43,333 bases of DNA, from positions 1-43,333 of the forward strand of contig JAAXXL010000017.1 in assembly GCA_013334485.1 (NCBI GenBank), read 5' to 3'. Each line of letters starts with the position of its first letter. The first letter of the stretch is position 1. Below the pieces are notes generated by a model, which was not told the origin of the DNA, did not search any database, and saw only the letters and a program-made list of their open reading frames with translations. Shown one piece after another: positions 34,134-43,333 of this stretch. The translations under genes and the position numbers were made by a program. This stretch comes from Chlorobiaceae bacterium. GTDB taxonomy: Bacteria; Bacteroidota; Chlorobiia; Chlorobiales; Chlorobiaceae.

Positions 34134-36383
34134 TCATCGGCGCTGTATATGATTAATCACCTCCGCAAGCCGGTCGATCTCCTCTTTGGTGTTGTAGAAT
34201 GCCAGAGAGGGGCGAATGGTGCCTTCGACGCCGAAACGACGCAGTGAGGGTTGAGAGCAGTGGTGACCTGTTCTGACCGCAATGCCCTCCTGATCGAGCA
34301 GTTTGCCGACCTCTTCGTTTGGCATGTTGTTGAGTACAAAAGAGAGAACGCCGACCTTGTTGCGGGCGGTGCCAATCATGCGCAAGCCGGGAATGCCGAT
34401 CAGGCGCTCGGTACCATACTCAGTCAGTTCATGCTCATAACGGGCAATGTTGTCAAGTCCGATTTTACGAACATAGTCGAGTGCTGCACCAAGGCCTATG
34501 GCATCACCGATCGAGGGGGTTCCCGCTTCGAATTTAGCCGGTGGTTCATTGTAGATGGTCTCTTCAAACCGCACATCCTGAATCATATTCCCTCCTCCCT
34601 GCCAGGGAGGCATGAGTTCGAGCAGTTCACGTTTGCCGTAGACTACACCAATTCCTGTCGGTGCAAATATCTTGTGGCCTGAAAAGACAAAGAAATCGGC
34701 ATCAAGATCCTGAACGTTGACCGGAATATGGGCAACCGACTGGGCACCATCAATCAGCACTTTGGCGTCAAAGCGTTTGGCAAGCTGAATCATTTCTTTG
34801 ATGGGCAGTATCGTTCCAAGGCCGTTTGAGGCCTGTGTCAGCGAGACAAACTTTGTGCGCGGGCCGAGTAGTTTGGTGTACTCTTCCATGATAATCTCGC
34901 CACGGTCGTTGACCGGTACAACCTTGATGCGGGCACCACGTTCGTGCGCTACCATTTGCCATGGAACAATATTGGCATGGTGCTCAAGGATCGAGAGTAC
35001 AATCTCGTCACCCGGCTGGAGGAACTTGCGTCCCCAGGTCTGAGCCACCAGATTGATCCCTTCGGTGGTACCACGAACATAGATAATCTCGGAAGTTGAT
35101 CCGGCCCCGATAAACTGGCGGATCTTTTCGCGAGCGCCCTCATAGGCATCGGTAGCCCGAGCTGCAAGAGTGTGAGCACCCCGGTGGATATTTGAGTTGT
35201 CGGTGGCATAGAACTGTGCAACCGCATTGATGACGCTCAGCGGCTTCTGTGTTGTGGCAGCATTATCAAACCAGACAAGTTGCTTGCCGTGAATGTTCTG
35301 GTGCAGCACCGGAAAATCCTTGCGGATAGTCGCTACATTGAACCCTTCGGGCGTATGCAGCGGTGCTTTGGGTTCTCGAATAAAATAGTAGGGCTCAACA
35401 AAAGAAGATTCAGGAAAACTGAATGGCAGGTTTGTCGTTCCGGGAAGAGCACTCCCTCCGTTTGGTCTGACAGGTGCAGGTGCTTTTCCCGGCAGTTCAG
35501 GTCGGGATGCGGATGCAGAGCTGAAATTAGCCGGTATCACTGCACCTGGAATAGTCGGAAGTTCTGAAGCTGGTAGTCCATTGGCGCTGCGAATTGACTG
35601 AAAAACCGATGAGAGGTCAGGCGTACCCTGTTCAAATTCAAAGTTGCGGTAGAGCTTCTCAGCGTAGCATTGACCCTCCGGGGCTCCTGCCGGAGCAGCG
35701 GGCAGACCGGAAAGCTTTTGCTCTGGCCGATGGCCTGAAAAAGCAGCAGGAGTGACAGCCTGCGGGTTGACCTCCGAGCGGGCAGGAGATGCTGATTGTG
35801 GATCCTCTGCTGCGGCCAGAAGCAGATTGAATGAAAAATCATCCTCACCGGGAAGACCGCTGTTCAGAGTGGTGAAAAACGGTGCAATTCTCTCCGGGCT
35901 GGCTTCAGCAAAATCTTCAGCCCTCTCCGGTTTTGCAGGCAGGGTGCGTTTGATGAACTGATCAAGTCCGTATGAGCCGTTGCTGTTTTCAGAGTAGTTC
36001 TGTTGCTCGGTCAGTTTGTTTGCATGATGGCCAAGCGGTTCCTCTTTTTTTGACGGAGAGGTGGAGATAAAGTAAAGATCTTGCTCCGGCGAGGCGAGGG
36101 CATCATTTGAAAAATATGGGAGCTCCGGATATGCGGGTAACTCCTGCAGAGGTGAATCATCAGGGAAGCGCACTGCGTCATGTTCAGAGAGCGGCCCTCT
36201 TTTTTCACTGAGGCGACCGGGAAGGGAAGCCGGGGTTGATGTGATGTCGCTCTCATCTCTCGGGACACTTGAAGCCTCAGGCAGTTCATTGAAGAGCCTG
36301 CTTGCGATCTGTGCAATGAAGGTCGGGTTGAGTGCTTCACTCTCTATTCCCGGAATATTTGGTTGCGCGTGTTCTCTGGGCAT
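34134..36383 (-). CDS. SufS-like cysteine desulfurase with ~345-residue N-terminal extension; predicted encapsulin cargo
   Basis: PLP enzyme releasing sulfur from cysteine, 749 aa. Residues 350-749 are a complete SufS/CsdA-type domain: FDNAATTQKP, SILEHHANIVPW, LIDGAQSVAH, PLP lysine K571 in FSGHKIFAP, and catalytic persulfide Cys C709 in VRTGHHCSQP. Residues 1-345 are Pro/Ser/Ala/Glu-rich, probably disordered, broken by short hydrophobic islands (20-34, 182-192, 242-266, 318-336). Long disordered N-termini that direct cysteine desulfurases into family 2 encapsulins are established knowledge (SrpI system of Synechococcus). The shell gene is 82 nt upstream. Packaging by residues 1-345 is an inference. 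A weak AGGA precedes the ATG. Confidence 0.93.
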   Translation of the reverse strand: MPREHAQPNIPGIESEALNPTFIAQIASRLFNELPEASSVPRDESDITSTPASLPGRLSEKRGPLSEHDAVRFPDDSPLQELPAYPELPYFSNDALASPEQDLYFISTSPSKKEEPLGHHANKLTEQQNYSENSNGSYGLDQFIKRTLPAKPERAEDFAEASPERIAPFFTTLNSGLPGEDDFSFNLLLAAAEDPQSASPARSEVNPQAVTPAAFSGHRPEQKLSGLPAAPAGAPEGQCYAEKLYRNFEFEQGTPDLSSVFQSIRSANGLPASELPTIPGAVIPANFSSASASRPELPGKAPAPVRPNGGSALPGTTNLPFSFPESSFVEPYYFIREPKAPLHTPEGFNVATIRKDFPVLHQNIHGKQLVWFDNAATTQKPLSVINAVAQFYATDNSNIHRGAHTLAARATDAYEGAREKIRQFIGAGSTSEIIYVRGTTEGINLVAQTWGRKFLQPGDEIVLSILEHHANIVPWQMVAHERGARIKVVPVNDRGEIIMEEYTKLLGPRTKFVSLTQASNGLGTILPIKEMIQLAKRFDAKVLIDGAQSVAHIPVNVQDLDADFFVFSGHKIFAPTGIGVVYGKRELLELMPPWQGGGNMIQDVRFEETIYNEPPAKFEAGTPSIGDAIGLGAALDYVRKIGLDNIARYEHELTEYGTERLIGIPGLRMIGTARNKVGVLSFVLNNMPNEEVGKLLDQEGIAVRTGHHCSQPSLRRFGVEGTIRPSLAFYNTKEEIDRLAEVINHIQRR

Positions 36384-36402
36384 AAATCCTGTGGTAATCC
36401 GA

Positions 36403-36442
36403 GCCCGTCCGGATCTTCATAAATTGATCAATCCGGACGGGC
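36403..36442. promoter_or_regulatory. Perfect 12-bp stem-loop between shell and cargo genes
   Basis: GCCCGTCCGGAT at 36403-36414 and ATCCGGACGGGC at 36431-36442, with a 16-nt loop. On the transcribed minus strand no U-tract follows, so it is not a standard terminator. On the plus strand a TTTTT occurs eight nt later. It sits 20 nt before the desulfurase start and could act as an RNA processing or stability hairpin, or a partial terminator. Confidence 0.6.
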
Positions 36443-36465
36443 AGGGTGGTTTTTGTCGGTTCCCT

Positions 36466-37923
36466 TTACTTGGTTTTGGCGGCTGTTTTGCGATGTTCGT
36501 AATCGTGATAGTAGCCGACCTCGACATTTTCAAGTACGGCAAGCGCATCATCAGTGAGCACTGCCAGAGAGGAGTAGAGCGTCAGGAGATAGGATGCCAC
36601 ACCAAGCTTGTCGAGACCCATCAGCCTGGCAGAGAGGCTCGGGCTGATTTCGCCTGGAATGCCTGCCTGATGCAGTCCAACCACGCCCTGCTCATTTTCA
36701 CCGACACGAAGCAGGATAATGCTTGTCGTGCCATGGCCTGACTGATTGTTCTTATTGATTTCGATTTTGTCGGTTGGAATCAGCGGTACACCGCGCCAGG
36801 TAAGAACCGGAGTTCCGAAGAGGCTTATGGTTGCCGGAGGGACGCCGCGCCAGGTGCACTCGCGCTCGAATGCGGCGATGGCTTTCGGGTGTGCGATAAA
36901 GAATGCCGGTTTTTTCCACACCTTTGTGAGCAGATCGTCAAGGTCATCAGGTGTCGGGGTGCCGTAGCGTGTGCTGATGCGCTGACCGGGATCGACAGAG
37001 TGAAGCAGGCCGAAGTCGCGGTTGTTGATAAACTCCCACTCCTGCCGCTCCTTGATGCCCTCTATTGTCAGGCGCATCTGCTGCTCTATCTGGTTGTAGG
37101 GTTCATTATAGAGATCGGAAACCCGTGTATGGACTCGAACCACGGTCTGAATGGCCTGAAGGGAGTATTCACGGGGCTTGTTCGAGTAATCGACATAGGT
37201 TTCAGGGATTTCGACATCTTCAGCGAATCCTGAAACAAGGTCGATATGCTTTTCACCATGCGTGTTGACGGTGGAGCGTATTTTGAGGTACTCGGCAACC
37301 GTCTTCTGGAAAGAGGCCTTCAGCGAAGGGGACTGGCGGAAGAGCTTTTCGATATCGACACTCGAAAGCGAGAAAAACGAGCCGGGAGTGATGGTCCGGA
37401 TGGTAACCGATGATGGCTTTTCGGAGACCAGATCCTCAGCACCGAAGTACTCACCTTCAGACAGCAGGGCGATACGCAGCTCCTCGCCATGGAGTCCCTT
37501 GCTTAATATCTCTACCTGACCATGTGCGATAATGAAGAGTTTATGACGGTCTTCACCTTCCAAAATGAGGGTGCTTCCAAGTTCAGCTTCTTCAAGAACA
37601 AACTTTTTTGCGATCTGGCTGATGATATCATCTTCAAATGCTGAAAAGAGCGGTATGCTCTTCAGGGCTTCAGGGCGGAATGAAGCGCTTCCTTCCTGAA
37701 AGTTGATACCGATCCGTTCAGGCTTCTGGAGTTCGATTTTTGTGCGGTTTACCCGGTAGGTGCCGGATGAGACATGAACCCACGGGAGTAGCTTCAGGAG
37801 CCATCTCGGGGTTATCGACATCATCTGGGGAGCGGTTTTGGTCGTGTTCGCCAGATTTCTTGCTACAGTAGTGGTTACACTGCGCTGTAAGTGACTGTTT
37901 GATTCCCGTTGTGTGTTTGACAT
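36466..37923 (-). CDS. Family 2 encapsulin shell protein with cyclic-nucleotide-binding-like domain (2B-type)
   Basis: HK97-fold protein that self-assembles into a nanocompartment, 485 aa. Residues 1-85 form the N-arm and early shell segment. Residues 86-215 are a Crp/CAP-type cNMP-binding-like domain (IPLFSAFEDDIISQIAKKF, LILEGEDRHKLFIIAHGQVE, EGEYFGAEDLV). Residues 245-475 carry the shell core, with the conserved encapsulin features YNEPYNQIEQQMRLTIEGIK, WEFINN, DLDDLLTKVWKKPAFFIAHP, FGTPVLTWRGVPLIPTDKI, GVVGLHQAGIPGE and LTLYSSLAVLTDDALAVLE. Having this domain places it with family 2B shells. It precedes a cysteine desulfurase and follows serine acetyltransferase and cysteine synthase genes, so the compartment probably serves sulfur metabolism. 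In the cassette, Ser171 stands where the phosphate-binding Arg is expected. Confidence 0.92.
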   Translation of the reverse strand: MSNTQRESNSHLQRSVTTTVARNLANTTKTAPQMMSITPRWLLKLLPWVHVSSGTYRVNRTKIELQKPERIGINFQEGSASFRPEALKSIPLFSAFEDDIISQIAKKFVLEEAELGSTLILEGEDRHKLFIIAHGQVEILSKGLHGEELRIALLSEGEYFGAEDLVSEKPSSVTIRTITPGSFFSLSSVDIEKLFRQSPSLKASFQKTVAEYLKIRSTVNTHGEKHIDLVSGFAEDVEIPETYVDYSNKPREYSLQAIQTVVRVHTRVSDLYNEPYNQIEQQMRLTIEGIKERQEWEFINNRDFGLLHSVDPGQRISTRYGTPTPDDLDDLLTKVWKKPAFFIAHPKAIAAFERECTWRGVPPATISLFGTPVLTWRGVPLIPTDKIEINKNNQSGHGTTSIILLRVGENEQGVVGLHQAGIPGEISPSLSARLMGLDKLGVASYLLTLYSSLAVLTDDALAVLENVEVGYYHDYEHRKTAAKTK

Positions 37924-37972
37924 GAGCGGTCTGTTGGTTTAAATGTATTATTGGGTCAGTCGGCCTTTATGA

Positions 37973-38884
37973 TCAGATGCCGCCGCCGTCAGTAAAGCTG
38001 CTTTCTACAGCTTTCTGCTGCAGTACTCTTGAGTTTGGCGGGAGGCTTTTTGTCTGCCAGACGTTGCCTCCGATAATGGAGTTTTTGCCTATGGTTATTC
38101 TCCCGAGCACATTGGCGTTCGAGTAGATAACGACGTTGTCCTCAATAATCGGATGACGGGGAACATCCTTCGCAGGATTTCCATCGTTGTCGAGTGTGAA
38201 TTTTTTTGCCCCCAGTGTTACCCCCTGGTAGAGCCGCACATGGTTGCCGATGATGCAGGTCTCCCCGATGACCACACCGGTTCCGTGATCAATGCAGAAA
38301 TATTCCCCGATATGGGCACCCGGATGAATGTCTATACCGGTTTCCGAATGGGACATTTCGGAGATGATTCTCGGAATAAGCGGTACACCGAGTGAGAGCA
38401 GTGTATGTGCCGCCCGGTAGTTGATCATGGCCCGGATAGAGGGGTAGCAGAAGATGATTTCACCATAGTTTTTGGCGGCCGGATCGCCATCAAAGATCGC
38501 TTTTACATCAGTGCACAGTTTTCTGCGTATTTCCGGCACAATCCCGATAAACAGCTCCGCTATCCCCTCGGCATTTTCCCCTGAGGCGGCAGTGTGATTG
38601 TTCTTATGGTTGAACTGTTGAACGCTTCTGATCTGCTCGGAAAGCAGCAGGTAGAGTTTTTCCACACGGACACCAAGGATGTGGGGAAGAGAGTTCTGTC
38701 GCTGAATCGGCTCACCGAAATATCCGGGAAAGAGGATAGAACGCAGCAATTCAACGATCTCCTTGAGCTTTTCAATCGATGGATGCAGCCGCTCATGATC
38801 AGGCAGAAAGTCACATGCAGCACTGCCGGAACCGGCTAAAAGCTGTATGGTATTTTCAATGACACTGCTGCTTTTGGTTTCCAT
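37973..38884 (-). CDS. cysE: Serine O-acetyltransferase (EpsC/CysE type)
   Basis: Makes O-acetylserine for cysteine synthesis. An N-terminal helical domain (residues 1-185) precedes a left-handed beta-helix of hexapeptide repeats from about 187: IDIHPGAHIGEYFCIDHGTG, VVIGETCIIGNHVRLYQGVT, IEDNVVIYSNANVLGRITIG. The catalytic His/Asp are in FCIDHGTGVVIGE. The long N-terminus fits the EpsC form. The C-terminus ends DGGGI, like the GDGI tail with which E. coli CysE occupies the CysK active site. I take the second ATG (METKSS; GGAG six nt upstream). It lies 109 nt after cysK and 50 nt before the shell gene. Confidence 0.94.
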   Translation of the reverse strand: METKSSSVIENTIQLLAGSGSAACDFLPDHERLHPSIEKLKEIVELLRSILFPGYFGEPIQRQNSLPHILGVRVEKLYLLLSEQIRSVQQFNHKNNHTAASGENAEGIAELFIGIVPEIRRKLCTDVKAIFDGDPAAKNYGEIIFCYPSIRAMINYRAAHTLLSLGVPLIPRIISEMSHSETGIDIHPGAHIGEYFCIDHGTGVVIGETCIIGNHVRLYQGVTLGAKKFTLDNDGNPAKDVPRHPIIEDNVVIYSNANVLGRITIGKNSIIGGNVWQTKSLPPNSRVLQQKAVESSFTDGGGI

Positions 38885-38953
38885 GATCATCTCCTGGAGT
38901 CGGATTTTTTGCTGTTACTCTGTTTATAAAAAATTCAGGTCATCGGGATCGGA

Positions 38954-39025
38954 CGGCAGGAAGATTTCCGATCTCCTGCCGCAAATCCATTTCTGTTCCG
39001 GTGAATGGGGATAGTGCCGGAACAG
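38954..39025. promoter_or_regulatory. Two consecutive stem-loops between cysK and cysE
   Basis: Hairpin A at 38954-38981 has arms CGGCAGGAAGAT/ATCTCCTGCCG (11 bp, one bulge). Hairpin B at 38993-39025 has arms CTGTTCCGG/CCGGAACAG (9 bp perfect, 15-nt loop). Neither is followed by a U-tract on the minus strand. They fill most of the gap before the serine acetyltransferase gene and could be RNA stability or processing elements. Confidence 0.55.
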
Positions 39026-39033
39026 ATGCATGC

Positions 39034-39987
39034 TCAGATATTAACCTGCTCAGGTTCAAACTGGTAGAGAAGGGTTGAGAGGTAGCGTTCTCCGGTATCG
39101 GGCAGAATGACAACAATCTTTTTGCCTTTGTTCTCATCACGCTGGGCGAGTTGCAGGGCTGCGTAAGCGGCGGCTCCCGACGAGATGCCGACAATGAGTC
39201 CCTCTGTGCGGGCAAGTACCCGTCCTGTGCGAAGCGCATCCTCGTTCTTGACCTGGATGATCTCGTCAATAATGCCGGTGTTAAGGATATCCGGAATGAA
39301 GCCGGCACCAATGCCCTGTATTTTATGTGGTCCGGGTTTGCCACCGGAGATGACAGGGGAGTCAAAGGGCTCAACGGCTACAATTTTTACACCGGGATTT
39401 TTCTGTTTGAGCACCTCTCCGACACCGGTTATCGTACCGCCGGTACCAACACCGCTGACAAAAATATCGACCAATCCATCAGTGTCATTCCAGATCTCTT
39501 CTGCTGTGGTTCTGCGGTGGATATCCGGATTTGCAGGGTTTTTGAACTGCTGAGGCAGAAATGAGTTGGCATATTCAGCGTGCAGCTCTTCGGCTTTTCT
39601 GATCGCGCCGGGCATACCTTCAGGTCCGGGAGTAAGAACCAGTTCCGCACCCAGAGCCTTGAGCAGGTTGCGTCGTTCAATACTCATGGTTTCAGGCATG
39701 GTAAGAATCAGGCGGTACCCTTTGGCTGCTGCGATGAATGCAAGAGCAATACCGGTATTGCCGCTGGTTGGCTCAATGATTACGGTATCCTTGTTGAGCA
39801 ACCCCTTTTTCTCTGCATCTTCGATCATTGAGAAGCCTATGCGGTCCTTGACACTGCCGCCGGGATTGAAGTATTCAAGTTTGGCTATAATTGAGCCCAG
39901 AGCCTCATGTTCAAGGCCGAAATTGCCCAGTTCAAGTAGAGGGGTGTTACCGATCAGGTCGGTCAGTTTTTTTGCAATACGTCCCAT
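39034..39987 (-). CDS. cysK: Cysteine synthase A (O-acetylserine sulfhydrylase)
   Basis: PLP enzyme converting O-acetylserine and sulfide to cysteine. With the ATG at 39987 ([16 protein letters not shown], 317 aa) the PLP Lys is K47 in [22 protein letters not shown] binds substrate, [11 protein letters not shown] and [19 protein letters not shown] are typical, and [14 protein letters not shown] binds PLP phosphate. Late segments [10 protein letters not shown] and [11 protein letters not shown] fit. The frame is open 12 codons further to a TTG. It is just upstream of its partner serine acetyltransferase, so a cysteine synthase complex is likely. Confidence 0.95.
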
Positions 39988-40097
39988 GGATGTTGATTGT
40001 TTAAGCGTTGGTGAATAGTTCAAGATGGAGAATATGCCTTGTTTTGTAAATCCCCTGTAAAGGGCATCTTTTATACCGCAAACAGGGTATAGGTGCC

Positions 40098-40751
40098 TCA
40101 GATGTGGTATTCAATATTGTCGATCAGTCCGGCTTTAATGGCATACATCATAAGCTCCGGGCTGCTTGATACACACAGTTTCCGGAAAATGTTTTTTCGG
40201 TGTGTCATGACAGTATGAAAGCTGATATGTTTTTTGACTGCAATCTCCTTTGTTGACAAGCCTGCGGCGATCTGGCGGACTATTTCAATTTCTGAAGTTG
40301 TCAGAAGGCTCGCATCTTCCATCGGTCCGTCCTTTTTCAAAAGGATGTCAAGCACATCTCCTGAATAGTATTTTTTGCCTTTCAGTGCGGCTTCGATGGC
40401 ATGAAAGAGTTCATCGCCATCATCAGTTTTCAGTATGATATTTTTAATACCGCAGTCGTTCAGCTCTTTTATTTTGATGTGCGTTATGGCGTTGGTCAGG
40501 ATGATGATTCCTGTTTCAGGATACTGTTTTCTGATCTCACCGAGGTCGTTGACCGAGTCAAAGTCAAAGAGTGTGTGATCGGTAATGACCAGCGAGATCT
40601 TCTCCTGCTGCAGATAGAGCAAGAGGCCAGCCTTGGTTGAAACAAGGTGTACCGTCTGGTAAAGCGGTGACAGAATTGACTTGAGTGCTTCATTCGTCAA
40701 AAACTGTTTGTCAGCAACTACCAGAGAGCTGTTTCTTTTATGATTAGTCAT
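40098..40751 (-). CDS. NarL/FixJ-type response regulator
   Basis: 217 aa. Receiver domain at residues 8-128: acidic residue in VVADKQ, phospho-acceptor Asp in [11 protein letters not shown], a Thr-containing ILTN, and the conserved Lys in IILKTDD. Only one acidic residue replaces the usual pair at strand 1. The LuxR-type HTH is at residues 150-210 ([43 protein letters not shown]). Two nt after the HPr-like gene and 110 nt upstream of cysK, so it may control the sulfur genes (inference). No histidine kinase gene is in view. Confidence 0.9.
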
Positions 40752-40753
40752 TG

Positions 40754-41020
40754 TCAGATGCCTGCCCCGTTTTCAAAAACCTCTTCTATCATTGCAAGTG
40801 CTTTGCTTCCGTTTCGGCCTTCGGCTGTTACCTTGAGCCGTGTTCCGGAAATTGCGCAAAGGGTGAGCATCTCAAGTAAAGATTCAGCGTTGGCTGTTTC
40901 ACCATTTTTTTTCTCGATCAAAATGGAGCACTGCTGTTCCCTCGATATTCTCAGGATTTTCGCTGCTGCCCGGAAATGGAGGCCGTGAGGAGTCTTTACT
41001 GTGAGATGCTTCTGCACCAT
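40754..41020 (-). CDS. HPr-like phosphocarrier protein
   Basis: 88 aa from the ATG at 41020, which puts the active His at the canonical position 15 and the Arg at 17 (TPHGLHFRAAAKI); Pro18 is Ala. A Ser near position 47 (NAESLLEMLTL) matches the regulatory Ser46 region. It could relay phosphate or act as an HPr kinase-type regulator. No EI, EII or HPr kinase gene is visible. The C-terminus is NGAGI, resembling CysK-binding tails. It is probably translated with the response regulator two nt downstream. Confidence 0.88.
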   Translation of the reverse strand: MVQKHLTVKTPHGLHFRAAAKILRISREQQCSILIEKKNGETANAESLLEMLTLCAISGTRLKVTAEGRNGSKALAMIEEVFENGAGI

Positions 41021-41052
41021 GTTCATGTTGTTAATGGATATAAAATAGTGGG

Positions 41053-41096: not shown

Positions 41097-42428
41097 TTAT
41101 TTTTTGATCAGCTTCGACAACCACCCCTGTTTCTGCGACTCCTCAGTGTGCAGCACTTCATCGAGAGCCTCTATCAGGTCATCGGGATGTTCAAGGCCGA
41201 TGGAGAGGCGGATCAGGTCTGGTGAGAGACCACTCTCAAGCTGCTGTTCTGCCGACAATTGACTGTGCGAGGTGCTTGCAGGGTGAAGGATAAGGCTTTT
41301 GGCATCACCGACATTGGCGAGATGAGAGAAGAGTTTGATGGAGTCGATGATTTTTACGGCTGCATCATATCCCCCTTTCACACCGAACACCACAACACCG
41401 CCAAATCCGTTTTTCAGGTCCCGTGAGGCGAGGGGGTAGGACGGGTCGTTTTTAAGGCCGGGATAACGTACCCATGCCACTTCCGGATGCGCGGAAAGGT
41501 ATTCAGCAACCTTGAGTGCATTTTCACTGTGACGGACCATTCTGACGGGCAGGGTTTCGATACCCTGAAGAAAGATCCATGAATTATCGGGAGAGATGCT
41601 TGCGCCAAGATTTCTGAGCGGAACCGTACGCACTCTCAGGGCAAATGCAATCGGAGCCAGCGGTTCCGGGAGGTCAATGCCCCAGCGCAGCCCGTGATAG
41701 TTTTTGTCGGGTTCAGTAAAGAGCGGGTGTCGTCCTCCCTTCCAGTTAAAGCGCCCGGCATCAGTAACGATACCCCCGATTCCTGTGCCGTGGCCTCCAA
41801 GCCATTTGGTTAGGGAGTTGATGACAATGTCAGCGCCCAGATCAATGGTTTTGAGCAGATAGGGGGTTGTGAAGGTAGCATCAACAATAAGCGGCAGGCC
41901 GTTTCTGTGAGCTACCTCTGCAATAGCCTTCACATCGCTGTAATCAAGGACCGGATTGCCAATGGTTTCAATGTAAAGCGCTCTTGTTTTTTCGGTTATT
42001 GCGCGCTCGAAATTGGCGGGGTCCTTCGGGTCAACGAATTTGACGGTGATACCCAGTTTTGGAAGAATGGCATCGAACTGGGTGTAGGTTCCTCCGTAGA
42101 GATTGTTTGCCGAAACGATCTCATCTCCGGCTTCAGCAATGGTTATGATGGTATTGAAAATTGCGGCTGTGCCTGATGCGAGGGCTACGGATGCAGCGCC
42201 ACCTTCAAGCTGTGTTACCCGCTGCTCAAGCACATCGGTTGTCGGGTTCATCAGCCGGGTGTAGATGTTGCCCAGCTCTTTCAGGGCAAAGAGGTTTGCG
42301 GCATGTTCGGTGTTCTTGAAGAGATAGGAGCTGGTACGGTAGACCGGAACTCCTCTTGACTGGGTTGCATCGACACTCTGGCCTGCATGCAGTGCGAGTG
42401 TTTCAAAGCGGTAGTTTGCTGAACTCAT
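41097..42428 (-). CDS. metY: O-acetylhomoserine sulfhydrylase
   Basis: Makes homocysteine from O-acetylhomoserine and sulfide (direct sulfhydrylation). Some members also use O-acetylserine. 443 aa, the longer form of the Cys/Met PLP family. PLP Lys is K208 in INSLTKWLGGHGTGIGG. Family marks are RFETLALHAGQ, YTRLMNPTTDVLEQR, SGTAAIFNTI, NLYGGTYTQF, ETIGNP and FSHLANVGDAKSLILHPAST, the last characteristic of MetY. A strong GGAG is present upstream of the ATG. It follows the DUF4395 gene by 66 nt, so both would be under the leader at 43012-43179. Confidence 0.95.
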   Translation of the reverse strand: MSSANYRFETLALHAGQSVDATQSRGVPVYRTSSYLFKNTEHAANLFALKELGNIYTRLMNPTTDVLEQRVTQLEGGAASVALASGTAAIFNTIITIAEAGDEIVSANNLYGGTYTQFDAILPKLGITVKFVDPKDPANFERAITEKTRALYIETIGNPVLDYSDVKAIAEVAHRNGLPLIVDATFTTPYLLKTIDLGADIVINSLTKWLGGHGTGIGGIVTDAGRFNWKGGRHPLFTEPDKNYHGLRWGIDLPEPLAPIAFALRVRTVPLRNLGASISPDNSWIFLQGIETLPVRMVRHSENALKVAEYLSAHPEVAWVRYPGLKNDPSYPLASRDLKNGFGGVVVFGVKGGYDAAVKIIDSIKLFSHLANVGDAKSLILHPASTSHSQLSAEQQLESGLSPDLIRLSIGLEHPDDLIEALDEVLHTEESQKQGWLSKLIKK

Positions 42429-42494: not shown

Positions 42495-42968
42495 CTATTG
42501 TTGTTGTTTTGGACCGAAAAATTTGAAGCGTTGGAGGTTGAACTGATAGAAGAGGAAGCAGCCGAAGCAGAACCCTCCGAGGGCTACTGCCGCTGCCGTT
42601 GCAACGAATGCTGAAAGAATCCATCCTGTCAGTTCAGCACCAAGCAGGAATGCGATCTGGGCTCCTCCGAGCAATATTGCTGCTATGGAGTTATTGAAAC
42701 GCATGAGTTTCGGATCTTCCGTTTTAGCGCTCTTGTTTTGTTCTGCAAAAATTCTCGATCCGATAATGAAAATCAGGCTTCCTTTCTGCCCAAACACTAC
42801 AGCGCCGAGAATGATAACAAAGAGCAGTGTGGTGATAACCGGCTGCTGAGCGAGAATGGCGGTCACAATACCCGTGAGCAGCACAACCCGGTTCAGTTTC
42901 ACAATTGGAAGCGGTATTCCTGTGCACACTTTTGTTGCAGCAGTGTTTGACGGGGATAAATTGGACAT
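42495..42968 (-). CDS. DUF4395-family membrane protein, 157 aa
   Basis: Function unknown. Three or four membrane spans: about residues 24-50, 60-72, 92-112 and 115-140. The conserved DUF4395 features are the LNRVVLLTG start of the first span, a middle DPKLMRFNNSIA segment, and the Cys pair in GGFCFGCFLFYQF near the end. A TTG 14 codons upstream is possible, but the ATG at 42968 begins where similarity is expected. First gene after the cysteine-rich leader and upstream of metY. A role in sulfur transport or thiol chemistry is only suggested by this position and the Cys pair. Confidence 0.8.
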   Translation of the reverse strand: MSNLSPSNTAATKVCTGIPLPIVKLNRVVLLTGIVTAILAQQPVITTLLFVIILGAVVFGQKGSLIFIIGSRIFAEQNKSAKTEDPKLMRFNNSIAAILLGGAQIAFLLGAELTGWILSAFVATAAAVALGGFCFGCFLFYQFNLQRFKFFGPKQQQ

Positions 42969-43011: not shown

Positions 43012-43045
43012 AAAAAAAGCCGGTACTGACAGTCAGTACCGGCTT
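43012..43045 (-). terminator. Attenuator-type intrinsic terminator in the metY leader
   Basis: Perfect 11-bp stem GCCGGTACTGA/TCAGTACCGGC with a 3-nt loop (CTG), extended by AA/TT and followed on the minus strand by TTTTTTTATTG. It stands between the leader peptide (43084-43179) and the DUF4395 start (42968). The upstream segments ACAGTCAG (43126-43119) and TACCGG (43101-43096) are exactly complementary to the 5' arm plus loop (43042-43029), giving a competing structure. Confidence 0.85.
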
Positions 43046-43083
43046 ATAATTCGAGTGTATGCACTTCATGAAATCATGTTGGG

Positions 43084-43179
43084 CTACCATCTCCTCCGGT
43101 AAGATCCTGTATCAGACGCTGACTGTTTTGCGCAACAGCAACAGCTTGTACAGATTATGTTGGAGGTCATTGCTTTCAT
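43084..43179 (-). CDS. Candidate cysteine-rich leader peptide, 31 aa
   Basis: Short ORF from an ATG at 43179 to TAG, with five Cys codons: C10, then C13-C16 in CTSCCCC. After the Cys run the next 30 nt contain ACAGTCAG and TACCGG, which can pair with the 5' half of the terminator at 43012-43045. The peptide continues AKQSASDTG and ends RRRW. A modest AAGAGACG stands upstream of the start. Ribosome stalling at the Cys codons when Cys-tRNA is short would favour the antiterminator and expression of the sulfur genes. The mechanism is inferred from the classical amino-acid attenuators. Confidence 0.65.
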   Translation of the reverse strand: MKAMTSNIICTSCCCCAKQSASDTGSYRRRW

Positions 43180-43333
43180 GAGTTCGTCTCTTGTTGTTTG
43201 CTTATTAACGATTGTTAACCATTTTTTCGGAGTTTTCCAAATAAAGTCTGTTTTTTCCTGACTTCCCCTGTCAGAAAAAATAGAGGAAGCCAGGATTGAA
43301 CGCCTGCACTATCACACTGTTTTTATTTCAGTT
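43180..43333 (-). promoter_or_regulatory. Upstream region of the sulfur operon leader
   Basis: No ORF. A possible -35 TTGGAA and -10 TAACAA with 17-nt spacing lie around 43243-43215. TTAAC-N4-GTTAA at 43204-43217 is an inverted repeat that could be an operator. A further stem-loop CTGAC-N7-GTCAG (43258-43274) is framed by T6 and A6 runs. None of these is certain. Confidence 0.35.

Follow-up and report, generated by a model that had tools for sequence, protein, structure and literature searches.

The stretch of DNA analysed here (the window) is a whole contig (C92:1-43333; 43,333 nt) of a 2.59 Mb Chlorobiaceae genome. Its minus strand carries a gene for a DUF4395 membrane protein followed by metY, and both lie behind a short open reading frame (ORF) and a hairpin. 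About 150 nt are present upstream of this leader. The features of the locus are as follows.

43211-43240, minus strand: promoter-like sequence, TTGGAA (43240-43235), 17 nt, TAACAAT (43217-43211), read from the sequence
43205-43218, minus strand: palindrome TTAACAATCGTTAA, probable operator over the -10 region, from its copy count in the genome and its conservation at leader loci
43084-43179, minus strand: putative leader peptide ORF MKAMTSNIICTSCCCCAKQSASDTGSYRRRW, ATG at 43179 to TAG at 43084, with orthologous Cys-run ORFs in relatives
43132-43152, minus strand: candidate regulatory Cys codons (segment 1), TGT at 43152-43150 and TGT TGC TGT TGC at 43143-43132
43110-43116, minus strand: segment 2, predicted outer antiterminator strand TCTGATA (consensus TTCTGACA), from a column scan and pair counts
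43096-43101, minus strand: segment 2, predicted inner antiterminator strand TACCGG (consensus ATATCGG), which pairs with CCGGT of the terminator
43017-43045, minus strand: intrinsic terminator hairpin (segments 3 and 4), AAGCCGGTACTGA-CTG-TCAGTACCGGCTT
43012-43018, minus strand: U7 tract of the terminator, read from the sequence; its first two T close the outermost hairpin pairs
42495-42968, minus strand: DUF4395 membrane protein gene, the first behind the attenuator (PF14340, 80.3 bits)
41097-42428, minus strand: metY, a PLP enzyme of the O-acetylhomoserine sulfhydrylase type (PF01053, E 3.9e-131)

The first-pass annotation of this DNA had described a 31-codon ORF with five Cys codons, four of them in tandem, then a perfect 11-bp terminator with U7, then sulfur-assimilation genes, and all three are present. 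The Cys codons form the motif CTSCCCC, with the tandem run at 43143-43132, and the terminator (43045-43017, with its T's at 43018-43012) reaches 13 bp if A/T pairs are counted. Folding of the whole leader is far better than that of shuffled sequences (z = -5.0), and an ATG-started ORF with CCCC arose by chance at a frequency of 5e-5 in 20,000 trials with dinucleotide-shuffled upstream regions. The four-Cys-codon pattern by itself was discarded as a genome search, as its 50 matches were uninformative.

The annotation had also predicted that the Cys run would be conserved in relatives, and a survey of the sequences upstream of every DUF4395 gene in 86 Chlorobiaceae genomes bears this out. DUF4395-metY adjacency is kept in 64 loci, and a Cys-codon leader with a terminator precedes 59 of these 64 metY-adjacent copies, compared with only one of the 16 other DUF4395 genes (Fisher p = 3.5e-11). 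Among the resulting 60 leaders, a count in which six low-Cys leaders were assigned by hand, 45 have a run of three to seven Cys, eight have CC and seven have CxC or a wider spacing; the Cys runs use TGC 133 times and TGT 84 times. The closest relative (G028) has a leader peptide identical to that of the window. Three genomes (G017, G026 and G030) have DUF4395-metY without the leader element. In G081 the terminator is kept and the leader is absent, at a site that adjoins a likely assembly break, and in G013 the terminator is kept with a one-Cys ORF.

In a structure alignment of 43 leaders (A1) the terminator is paired in 97.7% of cells, with five pairs changed on both sides, which is above all 500 shuffles. 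A blind column scan then gave, as the best-conserved helix other than the terminator, TTCTGACA with TGTCAGAG of the terminator loop and 3' arm. This outer antiterminator, (T)TCTGACA/CTGATA with TGTCAG(A), is paired in 92% of cells, and an inner one, ATCGG/TACCGG with CCGGT, in 84%; together, the two helices cover the terminator from its 5' arm through the loop and into part of the 3' arm. Sliding the antiterminator by one to three columns lowers its pairing from 89% to 23-40%. Within the main clade, changes fall on one strand at a time and preserve the pairing (A to G opposite U, C to U opposite G), with zero compensatory double changes, and shuffles of the 3' letters equal the scores of the antiterminator there. 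The divergent clades build the same mutual exclusion from different yet complementary sequences: GCAC..TGCCGG pairs with CCGGTT..GTGC in G046-G048, and GCTGT with ACAGC in G010 and G014. The last Cys codons can themselves pair with segment 2 (consensus TGTTG:TGACA) in 97.7% of cells, a helix of 5 bp only that shows zero double changes. The duplex energy between leader tail and terminator has a mean z of -1.6 relative to shuffles, and 24 of 60 leaders individually beat 95% of theirs; the GC-rich, palindromic terminator makes these individual scores weak. RNAalifold, applied to the alignment, returned the terminator alone, as expected where two structures exclude each other.

Two complementarities between the leader and the 5' side of the terminator had been named from the window alone, and both exist there: ACAGTCAG (43126-43119) with CTGACTGT, and TACCGG (43101-43096) with CCGGTA (43042-43037). 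The second belongs to the conserved inner helix. The first is not conserved and was rejected as a general antiterminator, as only the window species and its nearest relative have it, and G024 (Chlorobium ferrooxidans) lacks it. Thus the alternative pairing that was predicted in relatives is there, although its conserved outer part engages the terminator loop and 3' arm.

We also folded 49 leaders in silico with a ribosome placed on the Cys codons or at the stop codon and the RNA released to a given base, a calculation that describes equilibrium and not kinetics. With RNA released to 4 nt before the U tract, the antiterminator probability was 0.92 with a stalled ribosome and 0.10 with a ribosome at the stop codon. 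At 2 nt before the U tract, the corresponding values were 0.77 and 0.00 for the antiterminator, and 0.12 and 0.66 for the terminator. Shuffling the leader tail reduced the antiterminator in the stalled state to 0.33 (4 nt) and 0.13 (2 nt), and 36 of the 49 real leaders outscored all eight of their tail shuffles. The leader of the window is below the family average, with an antiterminator probability in the stalled state of 0.55 at 4 nt and 0.03 at 2 nt. Masking the Cys region, the folding check suggested with the original prediction, therefore favours the antiterminator across the family, and a ribosome at the stop codon favours the terminator.

By its anatomy, as far as this can be read from DNA, the metY leader is a member of the trp-type attenuator class. 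The proposal of trp/his-style attenuation with cysteine as the signal gains support from the conserved Cys run, the conserved alternative pairing and the mask folding. We consider it very probable that the leader attenuates transcription by way of the ribosome and senses cysteine as the charging of tRNA-Cys, and that it is one of a set found before sulfur-acquisition operons in Chlorobium-type genomes; leader translation, stalling, read-through and the cysteine response are the steps that we infer. With ample Cys-tRNA, the ribosome would pass the Cys codons and reach the stop codon, where it would cover segment 2 (TCTGATA..TACCGG), and the terminator would form before DUF4395-metY. With scarce Cys-tRNA, the ribosome would stall on the Cys codons and leave segment 2 free to pair with the terminator (5' arm, loop and part of the 3' arm), so that transcription would read through. 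Without translation, the Cys codons could pair with segment 2 and the terminator would again form. Tandem regulatory codons, segments 2:3 and 3:4 and an intrinsic terminator before a biosynthetic operon are features shared with the trp and his attenuators of enterobacteria, and the pairing of the Cys codons with segment 2 is a candidate for their 1:2 helix. Unlike these, the leader in Chlorobiota would sense cysteine, its segment 2 crosses the terminator loop into the 3' arm, and many operons per genome are involved.

Cysteine could instead act at the level of translation or through Rho, as in mycobacteria, with a stalled ribosome that exposes a ribosome-binding site or hinders Rho, the hairpin being of secondary importance. 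There is precedent for both: the poly-Cys upstream ORFs of mycobacteria are reported to work by translation attenuation (PMC13236596, citing Canestrari 2020), and an earlier study of Actinobacteria saw no terminators and proposed Rho (Seliverstov et al., 2005; PMC1262725). However, every well-aligned leader in our set carries a covarying hairpin, perfect or nearly so, together with a U tract, and it is this hairpin, not the start region of DUF4395, that the conserved complementarity targets. We regard control at translation or by Rho as unlikely at this locus.

A covariance model of the metY leaders (R1), run on the same genomes, gave additional full-length matches. Among the 64 further matches that were read, a Cys-run small ORF (sORF) with a terminator stands before genes for a sulfate-binding protein with cysTWA-type genes, a porin with an SsuA-like binding protein and ABC permeases, an outer-membrane porin, SsuB/TauB-like ABC proteins, an arylsulfotransferase, a BadF ATPase with double-cubane reductase-like proteins, variant radical SAM proteins, and an SDR with NifH/NifDK-like proteins (assignments by Pfam and NCBIfam). 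The NifH-like and NifD-like proteins have their best match in the MarDKH structure 9FMG, at 392 bits as against 284 for the next NifH; this structure is that of a methylthio-alkane reductase (PMC12552129). An RND efflux set (membrane fusion protein, pump and outer-membrane factor) was also seen with a Cys leader such as MKFLCCCYLEV (L210, L215, L221, L239, L244 and L289).

A second covariance model (R2), blind to frames and start codons, gave 23 matches outside its training set, and 20 of these have tandem Cys codons. In 19 of these 20 unseen matches the Cys frame holds an ATG-to-stop ORF, compared with 0 and 2 for the other frames. Starting from protein family alone, a Cys-rich leader ORF was found upstream of 26 of 30 genes for sulfate-binding proteins. 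Single genomes have up to 11 R2 matches at E <= 0.001. These regulon counts are lower bounds, as the models missed a leader of the window's own genome (C128) that was found through its tRNA-Cys gene, and a few of them are inflated by opposite-strand matches to the palindromic terminator. R1 and R2 gave no clear case outside the Chlorobiaceae, either over the order or among 296 genomes sampled from the phylum; R2 matches in six genomes of that sample that lie outside the genus, five of them at E > 5e-4, were taken as unproven. The window's own genome has seven Cys leaders, an under-counted set.

Leader 1, window, contig C92: metY (MKAMTSNIICTSCCCCAKQSASDTGSYRRRW)
Leader 2, contig C21: sbp (MDTFSYTPFCSEEHCCCQLKRDYDNTISGCCP)
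Leader 3, contig C95: porin-SsuA (MKSILFLNMSCRCLSYRILPDIQVVVSI)
Leader 4, contig C95: arylsulfotransferase (MECFYGMILLVVDHCCEQSD)
Leader 5, contig C66: radical SAM, SDR and mar-like genes (MKNFTCC)
Leader 6, contig C66: PNPOx-like and ABC genes (MAIIFIAETCCC)
Leader 7, contig C128: porin-tRNA-Cys-sulfite-reductase-like-cysH-cysD (MNTFGLSHYSTASSSCNCCCLLSGRLLHTTGFLI)

The genes that would be controlled in this way, among them metY, sbp, cysH, cysD and SsuA-like genes, fit the cysteine and sulfur pathway. Mask folding of the second-class leaders gave a weaker switch signal, 0.55 against 0.39 after shuffling, and 15 of 50 outscored all 10 of their shuffles. In nine of them the stop codon lies less than five codons past the Cys run, and the simple contrast between stall and stop fails. 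Seven loci (L199, L211, L219, L226, L236, L289 and L308) have the stop almost directly after the run, as in MAIIFIAETCCC. In such short-tail leaders the switch may rely on ribosome release.

The comparison across operons also bears on whether the metY sORF might be a functional Cys-rich small protein, for example a metal, sulfide or redox sensor, followed by an ordinary terminator that belongs to the sORF or to a transcript from further upstream. CCCC(C) motifs are capable of metal binding, and the C-terminal SDTGISG is conserved as a peptide. However, the codons of SDTGISG are exactly the bases that pair with the terminator, so its conservation is explained by RNA pairing and not by protein function. 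Furthermore, the N-terminal half is highly variable, as is the Cys count (2 to 7), no more than CxC or CC is left in divergent clades, and the leaders of different sulfur operons share little beyond the Cys run. A small protein is thus very unlikely to be what is conserved here. Least likely of all, with a very low probability, is a metabolite riboswitch or T-box that overlaps an ORF with incidental Cys codons: metY is elsewhere often under SAM riboswitches, but an Rfam scan gave no family at gathering score in the window leader and tRNA only in 20 related loci, and a riboswitch leaves unexplained the open, ATG-started Cys frame of the unseen matches.

Genes for tRNA-Cys are present inside two types of attenuated operon. 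In the metY operon, 13 relatives have an extra tRNA-Cys(GCA)-like gene between DUF4395 and metY (L002, L004, L008, L012, L017, L021, L026, L029, L031, L064, L067 and others), and a 14th genome has one with the anticodon ATA; the metY operon of the window genome is without it. This gene has G73, no encoded CCA, an imperfect anticodon stem and a class-II-like D loop. Bacterial tRNA-Cys carries U73. The ordinary tRNA-Cys gene (U73) lies behind the porin of an attenuated operon (L325, 3622-3696, minus strand; L326, L327, L190, L205, L208, L212, L213, L248 and L255). In the window's genome the order is leader, porin, tRNA-Cys, sulfite-reductase-like gene, cysH, cysD. The placement behind an attenuated porin recurs in many other genomes, and several genomes have a decayed second tRNA-Cys copy there, with other anticodons. 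The position of tRNA-Cys genes in controlled operons suggests a feedback loop, and to our knowledge no such loop inside attenuated operons has been described before.

Taken over the genome, we lean towards a cysteine attenuation network in the Chlorobium group of green sulfur bacteria. In each genome it would comprise about 5 to 10 operons that serve sulfur acquisition from sulfate, sulfonates, aryl-sulfates and methylthio-alkanes, all with a poly-Cys leader and a terminator switch of their own, and it would include a G73 tRNA-Cys-like gene in the metY operon of a subclade. On this reading, the tRNA-Cys genes inside some of the gated operons imply that the sensor tRNA would itself be under cysteine attenuation.

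The usual picture of leader-peptide attenuation is that of a device for single operons in proteobacteria and actinobacteria. Canestrari et al., in 2020, reportedly found a set of cysteine-responsive attenuators in mycobacteria, in which several loci per genome respond together. The leaderless poly-Cys sORFs of mycobacteria resemble the Chlorobiaceae leaders in that a Cys-run sORF precedes sulfur or cysteine genes. In contrast to those leaders, for which translational control and no conserved terminator are reported, the Chlorobiaceae leaders each have an intrinsic terminator, and those of the metY class differ further in that the Cys run lies in mid-ORF, with about 15 codons after it. Predicted Cys-codon runs upstream of the cys operons of Actinobacteria likewise precede sulfur genes, but they lie near the stop codon and without terminators, and their mechanism was left open (Seliverstov et al., 2005; PMC1262725). 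The uORFC-8-2 motif, a predicted attenuator before cysS in Rhodobacterales, combines tandem Cys codons in an upstream ORF with a terminator and U run (RNA Biol, 2021; PMC8632094). It is confined to cysS in Alphaproteobacteria and has two Cys codons near positions 14 and 15, unlike the four to five Cys before DUF4395-metY and other sulfur genes seen here, and no relation in sequence or target was seen. The literature that we searched held no cysteine attenuation for Chlorobi, in keeping with the original view that no case was known for this lineage or for metY, although the scope has proved wider than thought, with many operons beyond metY. The Chlorobium regulon, a terminator-based cysteine mechanism over many operons and the embedded tRNA-Cys genes all appear to be new.

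Cysteine attenuators with intrinsic terminators appear to be spread over the whole sulfur-scavenging programme of a deep-branching phototroph, where ribosome pausing would replace, or supplement, a sulfur-sensing transcription factor for a collective response. The regulon predicts roles in sulfur acquisition for the radical SAM proteins, the BadF/double-cubane reductase-like proteins, the porins, the nitrogenase-like genes and DUF4395. It also makes testable how assimilatory sulfur is sensed in an organism bathed in sulfide, or in a ferrotroph without sulfide.

Initiation at the metY operon may be regulated as well. Relatives conserve TTTGGAAA and the palindrome of the promoter region, and the palindrome TTAACAATYGTTAA, which overlaps the probable -10 region, is found at 53 of 59 leader loci if two variable positions are allowed. 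Only three copies of TTAACAATCGTTAA occur in the genome (window 43205-43218, minus strand; L112 1501-1514; L114 1501-1514), and the three sites are the leader -10 region, the position directly before a second cysK, and one before an unrelated-looking ORF. TTAACAATCGTTAA is probably the operator of a sulfur regulator, and its positions over the -10 region, before the second cysK and at most leader loci suggest that a transcription factor and the attenuator probably both control the metY operon. A GGGATTT box was rejected as a general signal, as two of its four genome copies fall inside genes and only two are of interest.

Further along the minus strand of the window, a lone HPr phosphocarrier gene (40754-41026) and a LuxR-type response regulator gene (40098-40751) lie between metY and cysK. 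A box like GGTATAAAAGATGCCCTTTACAGGGGATTTACAAA stands upstream of the cysK-encapsulin genes (40043-40054, minus strand) and again at G000:C66:11888-11899. It resembles one found upstream of several second-class Cys leaders (TTTATGGTAT..ATGCCGTTTAAACGGGATTTACAAA), and is maybe the site of another regulator. The genes behind it form a cluster of the sulfur-storage type (34134-39978, minus strand) with a type 2A encapsulin, a cysteine desulfurase, CysE and CysK. The encapsulin shell protein is SrpI with a cNMP domain (36466-37923), and the cysteine desulfurase, which at 749 aa has a long N-terminal extension, is likely to be the encapsulin cargo.
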